This document shows, one piece after another, positions 3,841 to 18,477 of a DNA stretch of 34,066 bases. This DNA comes from a virus: positions 1-34,066 of IMG/VR virus record IMGVR_UViG_3300015373_000023; one strand, 5' to 3'. Position 1 is the stretch's first letter; each line of letters begins with the position of its first letter. Made by a program: the position numbers and the translations under genes. The notes below the pieces were generated by a model. The model was not told the origin of the DNA. It did not search any database and worked only from the letters and a program-made list of their open reading frames with translations.

Positions 3841-3858
3841 CGCTCCCCCCGTTTAGCA

Positions 3859-4059
3859 TCATTTTGGTTGGATTACCCTTCTGTCTAGCAGATCTGCGAC
3901 GACACCAACCATTAATGATTTATTTTGCTCGGGTACATCTTCCCATGGAACAGCCGATTCTTTTCGAGTCTCATAGCCATAGGAAGGTGCTAGACGTTCA
4001 TATGTTTCATGAAATTCCCGAGCAATATCGTGAGCAATATGCATCTCTTCAGGACTCAT
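3859..4059 (-). CDS. Hypothetical 66-residue protein
   Basis: A helical protein with a WEDVPEQNKSLMVGVVADLL segment. A W-x-D-x-P-x2-x-K pattern like this recurs in many small phage and bacterial proteins of unknown role. Its ATG overlaps the stop of the 57-residue gene (ATGA), showing translational coupling. Confidence 0.7.
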   Translation of the reverse strand: MSPEEMHIAHDIAREFHETYERLAPSYGYETRKESAVPWEDVPEQNKSLMVGVVADLLDRRVIQPK

Positions 4060-4229
4060 ACGTCTGGCTCTTTATTCACGGGAGTTTCTCCCCGGAGAAT
4101 TTTCTCGATTCCCTCTGCGTCATGAGCACCGAAACCCGTCTGAGCTTGTACAAGCCACTGGGCCATCGTACCGACTGCTAGCTCAAGACGATCGACGCGC
4201 TTTTCGATTTGGAGCTTAGTCTCTGCCAT
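4056..4229 (-). CDS. Hypothetical 57-residue protein
   Basis: It starts with a likely amphipathic coiled-coil helix (KLQIEKRVDRLELAVGTMAQWL) and ends in an acidic stretch. It has a GGGGGGAA ribosome site before the ATG at 4227-4229 and its TGA overlaps the next ATG (ATGA). The pattern suits a small oligomeric phage protein; no function is recognised. Confidence 0.7.
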   Translation of the reverse strand: MAETKLQIEKRVDRLELAVGTMAQWLVQAQTGFGAHDAEGIEKILRGETPVNKEPDV

Positions 4230-4237
4230 TTCCCCCC

Positions 4238-4420
4238 TTAAACAAGTTTACGATATCCAGCTTTGCGAAGATCATCTTGAAGTGCTTTTAGTGTTTCTCG
4301 TGAACCACTAACTGTTGCGGGTTCAACATGAATAGTTTCTTTAAATTTTTCCCGCATTTCTTCAATTTCTTTCAACGGATGAATCTCGCTGAACAGTTGA
4401 GCTTCGGGGCTTACTTCCAT
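4238..4420 (-). CDS. Hypothetical 60-residue protein
   Basis: A charged, largely helical protein (HPLKEIEEMREKFKETI, TLKALQDDLRKAGYRKLV). No family recognised. It starts at an ATG at 4418-4420, just before the stop of the secreted lysozyme-like gene, and is followed after 8 nt by the 57-residue gene. Confidence 0.65.
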   Translation of the reverse strand: MEVSPEAQLFSEIHPLKEIEEMREKFKETIHVEPATVSGSRETLKALQDDLRKAGYRKLV

Positions 4421-4421
4421 A

Positions 4422-4904
4422 TCACACTCCGCACTTCAGTCGTGTGTTTGGCCATGGTCCGAAACCACGACCCGAGTAATATGCCCTCATAGCTACGGCC
4501 ATCTGAATGAATGGTGGCCAATTATCAGCTGTACCCAATGAATTTAGGAATTCTCTACCATAGGCGCGCTGGAAGTCCATATCCATTTGCATTCCGCCGT
4601 AATAGCCATTCCCGGTCCGAGCATTCCATCCGGCTTCAAAGCTATGAATGCATAGAAATGCGCGTGTAACTCCACCACTACCGAAACTTACTCTCTGACG
4701 ATTAACCTGTCTATGAATTTGTAGTGTGCGTCCTCGAGCATTTGCGTCCTTACGAGCTTGGACTGCCCGTTTAGCCCACCACTTAGCGGTTTTCCCTTGA
4801 TAGGTCGCACTAGGATATGTGGGTTCTGCCGTTGCTGTCGTCGTTACCATCACTAAAACAAGAATAATGATCGAAGCGACGATTATGGCGGTCAGAAACT
4901 TCAC
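4422..4904 (-). CDS. Secreted Rpf/lysozyme-like muralytic protein
   Basis: This 160-residue protein has an N-terminal membrane or signal segment (about residues 4-22) followed by ATAEP, a possible signal peptidase site near Ala26. The domain from about residue 80 has the pattern of resuscitation-promoting factor and transglycosylase-like lysozymes: CIHSFEAGW with the probable catalytic Glu90, GNGYYGGMQM at 99-107, then NWPPFIQMAVAMRAYY and GFGPWPNT. It would cut the glycan backbone outside the membrane, complementing the NlpC/P60 peptidase 1 kb downstream. The start is GTG at 4902-4904 with an AGGAGG site. It could act in lysis or in remodelling the wall for DNA entry. Confidence 0.8.
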   Translation of the reverse strand: MKFLTAIIVASIIILVLVMVTTTATAEPTYPSATYQGKTAKWWAKRAVQARKDANARGRTLQIHRQVNRQRVSFGSGGVTRAFLCIHSFEAGWNARTGNGYYGGMQMDMDFQRAYGREFLNSLGTADNWPPFIQMAVAMRAYYSGRGFGPWPNTRLKCGV

Positions 4905-12175: not shown

Positions 12176-13072
12176 TTAACCTTCGAAGTCGATTCGGTCG
12201 TAGATCACGCCATCGACATTGAAGTCAAGAAGGATAGATCCTTCAAAGCCGTTGACGAAATCCCGGGCAACTTGAGTATCCCCGTCAAATACGCCGAAAT
12301 TGATGAAATTATCGGTCTCGCCGTTTGGTGTGAGAATCCAACCGACCACTGCTCCAGCCTTGGATCTCGGAATTCCGAGCATGTCGTAGACTTCATTCAG
12401 AAACACATGCCCTCGAGAATGGAGCAGATCGTTCGCGTAGTTCTGCTGGCACTTAAGAAAGATCAGATTGTACTCGGGCTCCTTGTTCCACGATGAGGAG
12501 GATGGATCAAAGAATCGAGCATAGATCGACGGCTCGCCGAACCCAACACGAGTAACTTTCTTCTTCTTACCGGTCTCCGGATCTTCGATCGTCACTTCAC
12601 GAGTGCCATATCGGAAGTCTCGATCCTGATCCTCACCGTACTTCTCGACTACACGAGCTCGGTATTCGCTGAACCCCTTTTCCAGCGCCGTATATGCCGA
12701 CATCAGCGCGGCATTACGCTTGGTTAGGATATTGTGGGAGCTCGTCAAGGCATAGACAGAAAGTCCACCGAGAACGATAGCCGGAGCATACGCCCTTACA
12801 ACCTTGACGCCGGTCTGGAAATAGATGAGCGAAATATCCCGCTGGCGATCCTTCTCGCTGTAATCGGGATGATCCAACGTCTTTGCCGTCTCGAGCTTGT
12901 CCTTTGCTTCGCCGACGACTTCGTCCATCTTCAAAGTAGCCCGACAAGCGAGGACAGTACTCCCCACCATGCCCACGATACCTGCTCCAAGAAGAAGTCC
13001 CGGAGAACTTTTCTGCAAAAGCAGAGTATTACGGGCAACCTGTCTTCCGATTACCTCTGGGACAAACTTCAT
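12176..13072 (-). CDS. DUF6353-like membrane protein, copy 1
   Basis: A 298-residue protein with two probable membrane segments (GLLLGAGIVGMVGSTVLACRA near residue 25-45, and AYAPAIVLGGLSVYALTSSHN about 115-135), then a soluble C-terminal domain. It is a paralogue of the gene at 15096-15893: shared features are G-I/V-VG-VG---L--RA, a second helix followed by K-AAL, an EY--VVEK-G segment and the C-terminal GW--N-- region. I believe this matches DUF6353, a phage family of unknown function. The ATG overlaps the TGA of the 71-residue gene. A role in envelope modification or superinfection exclusion is possible but unproven. Confidence 0.75.
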   Translation of the reverse strand: MKFVPEVIGRQVARNTLLLQKSSPGLLLGAGIVGMVGSTVLACRATLKMDEVVGEAKDKLETAKTLDHPDYSEKDRQRDISLIYFQTGVKVVRAYAPAIVLGGLSVYALTSSHNILTKRNAALMSAYTALEKGFSEYRARVVEKYGEDQDRDFRYGTREVTIEDPETGKKKKVTRVGFGEPSIYARFFDPSSSSWNKEPEYNLIFLKCQQNYANDLLHSRGHVFLNEVYDMLGIPRSKAGAVVGWILTPNGETDNFINFGVFDGDTQVARDFVNGFEGSILLDFNVDGVIYDRIDFEG

Positions 13073-15095: not shown

Positions 15096-15893
15096 TCAAG
15101 ACCAAGCCTTGTCATAGTCGGGAAGTGGCTGTCTGGAGAAATCGATTGCGATGCACGGTCGCTGATCCTCAGACATCACTGTCGAGAACTTCACTTCCAT
15201 GTGATTGTTCATGTTCCAACCGACAGTGTCGGTGTAATGCGTAGGCGGCAATCCGATCTCGTCGTAGAAATGTGACAGGCTACAAGACATGTAGTTAATG
15301 ATCTCGTAGTTGACCTTGTTCTCGGCACGCTTGACATCTTCCATGGTACTTCTGAAATATCGCCCAGTAAGCATGTCGTAGAAGAGAACTTGACCGTCTC
15401 CAACGAGAATCACTTCATTAGACGACGGGGGCTGCTTGTTGACGCGATCCTGGGCGATCTCGTCTCTGATCTTCTCGTCCTGACGCGCTCCGAGCTTCTC
15501 GATGACCTTATCTTTGTACTCCGTGAGAGCTCGCTCGGAAACTGCTGTCGCGATTGTCAAGGCGGCGATCTTCTTCGAGGAAATACGATGCGCCAGGATG
15601 ATGCTCGTAACCGTAATGACACCGGTTGCCACAGGCGGTAGATATTGAATCCAAACCAACTTCGTCTTCTCGGTCTTTGAGAGCTCAGTGACATGCGTCT
15701 CCGGGAACTTCAGATCTTTCTCTCGATCACTTCGCTCTGCTTCGATGATCTGGGCGGCCTTGAATGATGCACGTCCCGTCAAGACAGCTGTACCAACCGT
15801 TCCAACTACCCCCACTGCGGTAAGAATAGTGGTAGAATTGTCGGTCACCAAGAACTTTGCTCGATCGACAATCTGAGTCAATCCAGTTACCAT
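15096..15893 (-). CDS. DUF6353-like membrane protein, copy 2
   Basis: A 265-residue paralogue of the protein at 12176-13072. It has a membrane segment TAVGVVGTVGTAVLTGRASFK near the N-terminus and a second (VATGVITVTSIILAHRISSK) around residue 90-110, then a soluble region (LTEYKDKVIEKLGARQDEKI; CSLSHFYDEIGLPP; VGWNMNNHMEV). I start it at the ATG 15891-15893, preceded by AAAGG; an upstream in-frame reading to 15956 overlaps the 51-residue gene in another frame and lacks a good ribosome site. It is probably expressed from promoter P2 with the 51-residue protein. Function unknown. Confidence 0.75.
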   Translation of the reverse strand: MVTGLTQIVDRAKFLVTDNSTTILTAVGVVGTVGTAVLTGRASFKAAQIIEAERSDREKDLKFPETHVTELSKTEKTKLVWIQYLPPVATGVITVTSIILAHRISSKKIAALTIATAVSERALTEYKDKVIEKLGARQDEKIRDEIAQDRVNKQPPSSNEVILVGDGQVLFYDMLTGRYFRSTMEDVKRAENKVNYEIINYMSCSLSHFYDEIGLPPTHYTDTVGWNMNNHMEVKFSTVMSEDQRPCIAIDFSRQPLPDYDKAWS

Positions 15894-15903
15894 CTTTGAC
15901 CTT

Positions 15904-16059
15904 TCAATATAGCGGGAAACAGCGGTTCGAGTTTCGATTTCGCATCTCACGGACAAAGATCCAGATCAACCACAATCCCCATGTCAAAAAGACCATGAAG
16001 ACATCGCCGAGAAACTTGAAGAAGCCGTAACGCTTCTGTGGGGCAACGCAAATATACAT
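15904..16059 (-). CDS. 51-residue membrane protein, family RYGF copy 1
   Basis: A short protein with one membrane helix: QKRYGFFKFLGDVFMVFLTW, then GLWLIWIFVREMRNRN. It is clearly related to the 40-residue protein at 18076-18198; both share RYGF, D-FM-F-T, GLWLIW-FVRE and a basic tail. It starts at the ATG 16057-16059 with an AGGAGG site and is the first gene after promoter P2 and its folded leader. Such basic, one-helix peptides could alter the host membrane or a membrane complex; this is inference. Confidence 0.75.
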   Translation of the reverse strand: MYICVAPQKRYGFFKFLGDVFMVFLTWGLWLIWIFVREMRNRNSNRCFPLY

Positions 16060-17394: not shown

Positions 17395-17940
17395 ATGCTG
17401 AGGGGATTACTAGCTCCTAGATAGCATAGGCACGTTCCTTTAACGCCCTTACAGGCAAGGCGACCGTGCGGCCTATCGACTTGTCTAGCTGCAATCCAAT
17501 AGGCTTACACTAAACAGGATTCATCGGCTTTCGCGGATAATCCCCTCAACCTTTGAAAAATATTAGGAGAGAGTTTCGCTGCGGTCGCCCTCCGGAAGGC
17601 AGTTGCAGCCTGCGGTCTTGCACCACCCCATCTAACTGCTCTCTCCTAATCTGGGCCTGACCTACCCTTTTCAGATGAGTCACGTTTAATCGGCCTTGGA
17701 TAAACCGAACCCAGATCTTTTCCAATCCCTTAACCAGAGCCTGTGGAGCGTTTAGTAAGTAGCCTATTTTTTCGGACGGCCAATCCGCGGGCTTACTGTG
17801 CACGTAAACCTCCAGTATACCTTACTCCACGCCGCGTCCCCGCACAACCAGGTGAACGATTTGTCCCTGCGGTGTTGTGACCGGAGGTTTTGTCGTTCCA
17901 TCATACACAGGCCCTGGTTAAAGGATCGGGCAAACAAAAA
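17395..17940 (-). ncRNA. Multi-domain folded non-coding region
   Basis: Four hairpin-closed domains lie almost back to back. Domain 1: 17399-17409 with 17538-17548 (11 bp), with nested CTAGA/TCTAG, ATAGGC-CACG and CGCCCTT stems. Domain 2: 17562-17573 with 17639-17650 (12 bp perfect), inside which GCAGTT/AACTGC pairs. Domain 3: 17649-17655 with 17710-17716 and an inner GTTTA/TAAAC. Domain 4: 17729-17745 with 17906-17923 (G-U on the minus strand), with nested AGTAAG, AAACCTCC and CACAAC stems. Promoter P4 lies upstream. No known ribozyme, tRNA or riboswitch core was recognised. A GTG-initiated 85-codon ORF (17546-17803) crosses it. Confidence 0.6.
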
Positions 17941-17997
17941 GGAGAAGGTACGAGCGAATTATTTCTTCTTCATATTCGCACATAGTGTACCTTCTCT
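17941..17997 (-). ncRNA. Folded leader with U-tract downstream of P4
   Basis: AGAGAAGGTAC right after promoter P4 pairs with GTACCTTCTC, with an inner GCGAAT/ATTCGC hairpin. TTTTTG follows. It repeats the promoter-hairpin-U-tract layout of P2 and P3 and precedes the 560-nt folded region. Confidence 0.62.
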
Positions 17998-18022
17998 ATT
18001 ATAGTAGATGTTTTTATCGCGA
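17998..18022 (-). promoter_or_regulatory. Cassette promoter motif P4
   Basis: TCGC at 18022-18019, 15 nt containing TAAAAACA, TATAAT at 18003-17998, then AGAG. It follows the terminator of the 40-residue gene and would transcribe the folded region and the genes at 17376-16809. Confidence 0.75.
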
Positions 18023-18026
18023 GTGA

Positions 18027-18065
18027 CAAAAAAGAGAACCTTGTATAACAGCTCTCCTTTTTGAG
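18027..18065 (-). terminator. Intrinsic terminator after the 40-residue gene
   Basis: The minus strand has GGAGAGC, a short loop, GGTTCTC, then TTTTTT. The pairing is weaker than in neighbouring terminators but the U-run and position 10 nt after the stop fit. Confidence 0.6.
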
Positions 18066-18227: not shown

Positions 18228-18252
18228 ATTATAAGGAGTGTTTTTCCTGCGA
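18228..18252 (-). promoter_or_regulatory. Cassette promoter motif P5
   Basis: TCGC at 18252-18249, 15 nt containing GAAAAACA, TATAAT at 18233-18228, then GAA. It lies just after the upstream terminator and 30 nt before the ATG of the 40-residue membrane protein. Confidence 0.78.
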
Positions 18253-18253
18253 C

Positions 18254-18290
18254 AAAAAAGAGAATTCCATGGTTAGGAACTCTCTCTTTT
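18254..18290 (-). terminator. Intrinsic terminator after the 60-residue gene
   Basis: On the minus strand AAAAGAGAGAGTTCC pairs with GGAATTCTC followed by TTTTTTG. It begins 4 nt after the stop at 18295-18297 and directly abuts promoter P5. Confidence 0.78.
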
Positions 18291-18294
18291 GATA

Positions 18295-18477
18295 CTACGA
18301 GCGAAGCGCAGCAACGGGCTTCAGGATGGTCGTCTTCACGATGTCGAGGTTCGTCCTGCGGATCATCTTGATGGCCTTGACCAACACCTTCTCAGCAACG
18401 AGGATGTAGATCATGCCAACGATGGTCCAGAGGATGCCTCTGAGCAGCATGAAAGCAATTCTTCCGATGAAAACCAT
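18295..18477 (-). CDS. 60-residue membrane protein
   Basis: A long hydrophobic stretch fills the first half (VFIGRIAFMLLRGILWTIVG followed by MIYILVAEKVLVKAI), then a basic tail (KMIRRTNLDIVKTTILKPVA). It is an independent cassette with promoter P6, an AAGGAG site, and its own terminator. No family recognised. Confidence 0.72.
   Translation of the reverse strand: MVFIGRIAFMLLRGILWTIVGMIYILVAEKVLVKAIKMIRRTNLDIVKTTILKPVAALRS

Follow-up and report, generated by a model that had tools for sequence, protein, structure and literature searches.

An IMG/VR virus record of 34,066 bases, here called the window, contains about 560 nt that had been read from sequence alone as a folded non-coding RNA of four closed domains. 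This raised the question of whether the fold is real, whether it is conserved in other phages and what such an RNA might do. The window encodes a capsid-protease fusion, major tail proteins, a tape measure protein and a primase-polymerase, and its nearest phages are those of Gordonia, Streptomyces, Arthrobacter and Rhodococcus. According to a crude gene predictor, positions 17397-17929 form the longest gene-free gap of the contig. Tail-end genes lie on one side of this region and a run of short unknown ORFs without Pfam match on the other, and packaging genes are not among the flanking genes. Two genes of the unknown PHROG family phrog_2152 (12176-13072 and 15096-15956) are located between the RNA and the polymerase gene.

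We folded positions 17395-17940 on both strands and compared the energies with those of shuffled sequences. The minus strand, which is the strand of the recognised phage genes, reached -220 kcal/mol against -178 ± 6.7 kcal/mol after shuffling (z = -6.2; 0 of 100 shuffles), whereas the z score of the plus strand was only -2.2. This confirms the proposed fold of a non-coding RNA, read from the minus strand of a gene-free gap, and a transcript from this strand is predicted. The minimum free energy (MFE) structure also contained the four closed domains side by side, with z scores of -6.2, -3.7, -2.6 and -4.7 for domains 1 to 4. Their closing stems had been put at 7-18 bp, which held for domain 2 (8 bp), domain 3 (9-11 bp) and domain 4 (14 bp) but not for domain 1, whose closing stem is 24 bp long. 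The G-U pair ascribed to the closing stem of domain 4 was located at 17537/17410, and the promoter expected upstream of the RNA corresponds to a promoter-like site at about 18029-17997. As anticipated, we found no tRNA, ribozyme or riboswitch: ARAGORN and Rfam detected no tRNA or tmRNA in the window, and the suggested Infernal search, run as a cmscan of the RNA stretch against Rfam, matched no family even at E <= 5. Sliding-window scanning of folding energy, regressed on composition, proved too noisy, and comparing gene-free gaps with their shuffles performed better. The features of the region are as follows.

17997..18029, minus strand: promoter-like site TTGTCA ... TATAAT, with a repeated phage motif at 18021-17997 (see below)
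17934..17997, minus strand: closed leader hairpin starting near +1, with a U-run at its end (z = -4.7)
17722..17929, minus strand: domain 1, assigned to a new RNA family from its fold, its match to model R1 (see below) and covariation
17929-17906 with 17745-17722, minus strand: closing helix P1 of domain 1, 24 bp, from the MFE structure
17855..17897, minus strand: P2, AACGA/UCGUU (17897-17893 with 17859-17855)
17874..17879, minus strand: loop of hairpin 1, CACAAC, the kissing partner of hairpin 2 by covariation
17839..17852, minus strand: hairpin 2, CCUG[GUUGUG]CGGG, with a six-nt loop fully complementary to the loop of hairpin 1
17790..17810, minus strand: third hairpin, GGUUUAC[GUGCACA]GUAAGCC, with a 6-nt palindrome in its loop; candidate homodimer kissing loop
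17648..17717, minus strand: domain 2, two hairpins in an 8-bp closed stem, from folding energy only
17565..17647, minus strand: domain 3, a 9-11 bp closed stem with inner hairpins, from folding energy only
17397..17550, minus strand: domain 4, a 14-bp closed stem with two inner hairpins, from folding and a relative in L033
17176..17376, minus strand: 66-aa ORF 3' of the RNA, without Pfam match

Domain 1 and its relatives

As a starting set, we fetched loci around the window's polymerase (L numbers are our handles for loci). Sequence searches identified relatives of domain 1 in L005/L006 (69% identity) and in L004. These copies are found at about the matching genome position, consist of domain 1 alone and have a different gene after them; the 66-aa ORF is likewise not kept beside the relatives of the RNA. 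The ORFs that overlap the RNA region are not conserved either, as single-base gaps separate the relatives and the RNA helices are kept. The RNA of about 560 nt is a real fold, but it is not conserved as a single block: domain 1, which measures about 210 nt and stands alone in L004 and L006, is a self-contained family member.

We aligned domain 1 of the window with L004 and L006, both found by sequence alone, and with L146, which R1 and a sequence pattern had each picked out independently. In this four-sequence alignment, 97.9% of the cells in the named structure pair. Furthermore, both sides had changed in 37 of 71 pairs, a value reached by none of 500 shuffles, and pairing collapsed when the partners were slid by 1-3 columns. 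Covarying closing stems in relatives, which the sequence-only reading had named as confirmation, were thus found for domain 1. At the level of sequence comparison, domain 1 is shown to be a conserved RNA fold. Its closing helix leads into a junction that carries P2 and hairpin 1, hairpin 2 and variable further hairpins, with P2 enclosing a CAAA..ACAAA internal loop and hairpin 1.

Several kin with excess folding in gene-free gaps share, by eye, the core G(A/G)(C/T)GACAAA - hairpin 1 - ACAAATC(G/A)TC - hairpin 2. The core set was enlarged with regex searches and by scanning IMG/VR for exact patterns, and the covariance model R1 was built with 22 core sequences as seed; eight were left out, with six odd-hairpin ones kept as tests. 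R1 recovered all six held-back members and found new copies. All 15 significant matches (E < 1e-5) in the polymerase-kin set lay on the coding strand. In the window, itself part of the 22-sequence seed, the core GRYGACAAA - hairpin 1 - ACAAAUCRUC was matched at 17903-17827 (57.5 bits, E = 5.8e-15). Applied to 42 sources, two of them on one contig, R1 gave 47 distinct sequences from about 41 phage contigs at E <= 7e-7; L131/L149 (28.7 bits) were excluded as coding-like. Across the family, P2 reads GRYGA..UCRUC, with conserved CAAA/ACAAA internal-loop strands and hairpin 1 on top, and hairpin 2 has a stem of 3-5 bp and nearly always a six-nt loop. P2 and hairpin 1 covary across the 47 R1-aligned sequences, in an alignment that leans towards the model, and the covariation of P2 is biased in members found by pattern or regex because those searches impose the P2 stem. 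The same searches imposed neither the closing helix nor hairpin 1, hairpin 2 or the loop-loop pair.

A blastn search against 50,697 phage records left the RNA itself unmatched; what it returned were promoters or genes flanking the RNA and weak matches at chance level. A check with R1 led us to reject matches in phage records of Geobacillus, Vibrio and Pseudomonas. Additionally, R1 matched none of eight cultured kin among the actinophages and none of seven T4-like phages, and there was no cultured carrier of the RNA among the records tested. A pattern scan of genome contigs from 84,980 prokaryote species gave two loci in a chance-like context. Scanning for GCCGACAAA..AAAGCGGC gave 53 loci, nearly all without the fold, and R1 accepted only already known types. 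Rfam returned nothing relevant for the family members at gathering threshold or at E <= 1. The string ACAAAUCGUC did not occur in the papers listed by a full-text literature search; subscription papers lie outside its coverage, so an earlier description may exist elsewhere. Judged by its match to R1 and by these searches, domain 1 belongs to a previously unlisted phage RNA family that is absent from Rfam.

Loop-loop pairing in domain 1

In the window, the loops of hairpin 1 (CACAAC) and hairpin 2 (GUUGUG) form a kissing pair of 6 bp. The kissing pairs of relatives include CGUACA/UGUACG, CUGCAA/UUGCAG, CGUGGA/UCCACG, CUACCA/UGGUAG and CCCGAA/UUCGGG. A pair of at least 5 bp was present in 42 of 47 non-redundant members and one of at least 6 bp in 33, compared to 12% and 2.6%, respectively, of mismatched loop partners (permutation z = 15.2; 0 of 20,000 permutations as high). 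Four further members, outside the 47, could not be parsed for this pair. The loop of hairpin 2 measures six nt in 43 of the 47, and the letters are rewritten in almost every member, giving about 30 different duplexes. A clear kissing pair was missing in five of the parsed members, namely the L012/L134 type, L114, L171 and L195. In L012 (3433-3496) and L134 (3352-3415), hairpin 1 is very short, being a palindrome of 10 nt (AGCCUAGGCU), and the loop 1-loop 2 pair is absent; in this type, pairing is possibly between molecules.

Six contigs carry two copies. Both codes were readable in L007, L017, L147, L110 and L180 and differed clearly between the copies in all but L180. Since the codes of the copies differ, pairing would take place within one molecule or between identical molecules, not between the two copies.

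The loop of the third hairpin reads GUGCACA in the window, the L006 type and L146, and GACGUCA in the L004 type. The palindrome is kept in all four sequence types though four of its six letters change (GUGCAC <-> GACGUC); our scan for more members of the window's subfamily left the letters of this loop free. Switching from palindrome to palindrome is the type of evidence described for homomeric contacts in OLE and GOLLD (PMC12286853). The third-loop palindrome suggests homodimers in the window's subfamily, and this reading stays suggestive because, among four sequence types of which three share one palindrome, just two palindromes were seen.

Genomic setting and possible function

Members of the family occur in soil actinophage-like contigs, in marine T4-like phages and in very large phages (L198, L199 and L193, of 186-267 kb). 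We favor the reading, at a probability of about 0.6, that the RNA is structural and trans-acting, that the internal kissing pair locks its core and that it perhaps dimerises in the window's subfamily. A compact, stable RNA would be made during infection, either from its own phage promoter or by co-transcription with phage tRNAs, and would act in trans. The intramolecular loop-loop pair would lock two neighbouring helices side by side, and by analogy with OLE and GOLLD, the palindromic third loop may join two copies into a homodimer in the window's subfamily. Trans action is supported by the genes downstream of the members, which fall into 33 unrelated protein clusters, by tRNA-gene neighbours, by contigs with two copies and private codes, and by sigma-70-like promoters that were seen by eye just upstream of the RNA in L198 and L189. 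Against this reading stand the five parsed members that lack a clear kissing pair, the marine T4-like members, in which long closing helices are missing, domains 2 and 3, for which no relatives were found, and the records of cultured phages, which gave no carrier.

An alternative that we consider unlikely is a cis-acting leader, attenuator or put-like antitermination RNA controlling the phage genes that follow on the same transcript. The motif CGC-N3-AAAAACA-N5..8-TATAAT is found at 18021-17997 and again at 18251 and 16808, with 0 expected in shuffles, and the leader hairpin, which is terminator- or cap-like and may end, cap or gate transcription, lies directly 5' of domain 1. The same order (promoter, closed hairpin of 55-105 nt from about +1 with U-run, domain 1, same-strand genes) is present in the window, L006, L017 and L012, with the corresponding hairpins at L006:4361-4445, L017:1138-1192 and L012:3310-3413. 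A terminator-like hairpin between promoter and RNA would fit a regulated leader and counts against a trans-acting RNA, and the position of marine T4-like members directly before the neck gene (L089, L163, L168, L191 and others) points in the same direction. However, a cis element is hard to reconcile with downstream genes that are not of one type and with members located between tRNA genes. Moreover, we saw no conserved alternative pairing with the start site or a terminator, and in the window's group every element has a closing helix of its own.

A rival that we regard as less probable still is a decoy or inhibitor RNA, kept with tRNA arrays as a counter-defence, that would sequester an RNA-binding protein, a toxin or a defence nuclease of the host. 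Members lie inside or beside tRNA arrays in L126, L132, L169, L172 and L195 and near tRNA or tmRNA in L016, L103, L110 and L095. Copies with private loop codes would fit such a role, and the conserved unpaired CAAA/ACAAA strands offer a possible protein site, but Pfam recognised no adjoining toxin-antitoxin or defence gene. The phage-borne tmRNA genes near family members are at L016:1423-1722 and L110:9572-9886.

A DNA-level inverted-repeat element, such as a miniature mobile element whose arms merely resemble an RNA stem, is already disfavoured and very improbable. The variable genomic positions and the very long near-perfect closing repeats of L132 (28 bp) and L007 (32 bp) would agree with it, but the kissing loops and inner hairpins covary independently of the arms, folding is strand-asymmetric and the polymerase-kin members are all on the coding strand. 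The arms are also weak in many members: although the window's group and some others have closing helices of roughly 20-38 columns, in many members none rises above background. Least probable of all, chance folding of a GC-rich spacer or of tandem terminators is refuted for domain 1 by the whole-region z of -6.2, by covariation that 0 of 500 shuffles reach and by conservation across lineages, although such spacers are present in these phages, and it is still possible for domains 2 and 3, which alone reach only z of about -3.

Further domains and comparison with known RNAs

No relative of domains 2 and 3 was found. Domain 4 and L033 have a layout in common as well as a loop of 20 nt, GGAUUGCAGCUAGACAAGUC, located in the window at about 17497-17478, and a pattern scan retrieved L033's contig only. 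The end of L033:17195-17985 is the sole, distant relative of this domain; that stretch as a whole is about 800 nt of folded, apparently non-coding sequence downstream of a polymerase gene (z = -6.1; no Rfam match). By eye, multi-domain layouts 3' of the core are also present in L017, L012 and L109. Because the domain 1 unit is extended with domains 2-4, the window RNA would be a modular ornate RNA, perhaps a GOLLD/ROOL-like scaffold or assembly with a different fold.

Likeness to GOLLD and ROOL without membership was what the sequence-only reading had proposed, and this description stood: the RNA is phage-borne, ornate and rich in kissing loops, its relatives lie near tRNAs, and Rfam gives no match. 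Both candidates were rejected, their Rfam covariance models being unmatched in the window (E <= 5) and in the members. ROOL is a large phage- or prophage-borne non-coding RNA found near tRNA islands, with kissing loops and of unknown function (PMC12286853). Members of the new family are similarly phage-borne and apparently held by kissing loops, and five share the tRNA-array location given above; unlike ROOL, the window itself has no tRNA, the family has a separate consensus for a conserved core of about 80 nt, and members measure about 80-550 nt. GOLLD is phage-borne and modular, with a conserved part, variable domains and a homomeric contact made through a covarying palindrome in a loop (PMC12286853). 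All these traits of composition recur in the window RNA, including a palindromic covarying loop, but its conserved part is 5' instead of 3', and sequence and pairing differ. OLE RNA, whose dimer contact is made via a covarying palindromic loop (PMC12286853), resembles the window RNA in that loop. It gave no Rfam match to the window. To our knowledge, OLE is not a phage RNA.

T4 species 1 and 2 RNAs (rnaC, rnaD) are annotated as small stable RNAs in a phage tRNA cluster, a place analogous to that of the new family, and we know of no function for them. They lack the GACAAA/ACAAAUC core, and an unfiltered R1 search of the tRNA cluster of T4 gave no significant match; they were thus rejected. The prohead RNA (pRNA) of phi29 is a phage RNA that pairs two hairpins loop to loop and is part of the packaging motor. 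In contrast, the new RNA is not found with packaging genes, and its loops 1 and 2 lie next to each other in one molecule, where they are complementary; the comparison with pRNA was made via Rfam only.

We see roughly even odds that the family represents a widespread undescribed phage RNA class with an intramolecular kissing-loop core, a rewritable six-letter loop code and homodimers or larger RNA-only complexes formed via palindromes, a class that phages of the actinophage-like, marine T4-like and very large kinds would carry as one copy, as tandem copies or as the opening domain of an ornate RNA. Complex structured phage RNAs are few (GOLLD, ROOL) and neither is functionally explained; the new family would be the third. 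With about 80-210 nt, a size for routine biochemistry, it has dozens of members and a built-in mutational code, and its small size together with the tRNA-array link in unrelated phages would make the function of such RNAs directly testable. More generally, RNA families absent from Rfam can be discovered in uncultured phages from a single member and synteny.

Other structured stretches were observed in the same loci. Another closed module with a long closing stem, GACACAGGCCCAAATCCTA ... AAGCCTGTGTC, is common to L017:2650-2880 and L007:3083-3260 and is not matched by the core model. In L013, about 950 nt (3851-4800) are gene-free and fold strongly on both strands (z = -5.5 and -4.8), with no Rfam match. 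Finally, the phage contig L081 contains at 18250-18420 a near-perfect inverted repeat with arms of about 60 bp and poly-A/T stretches.
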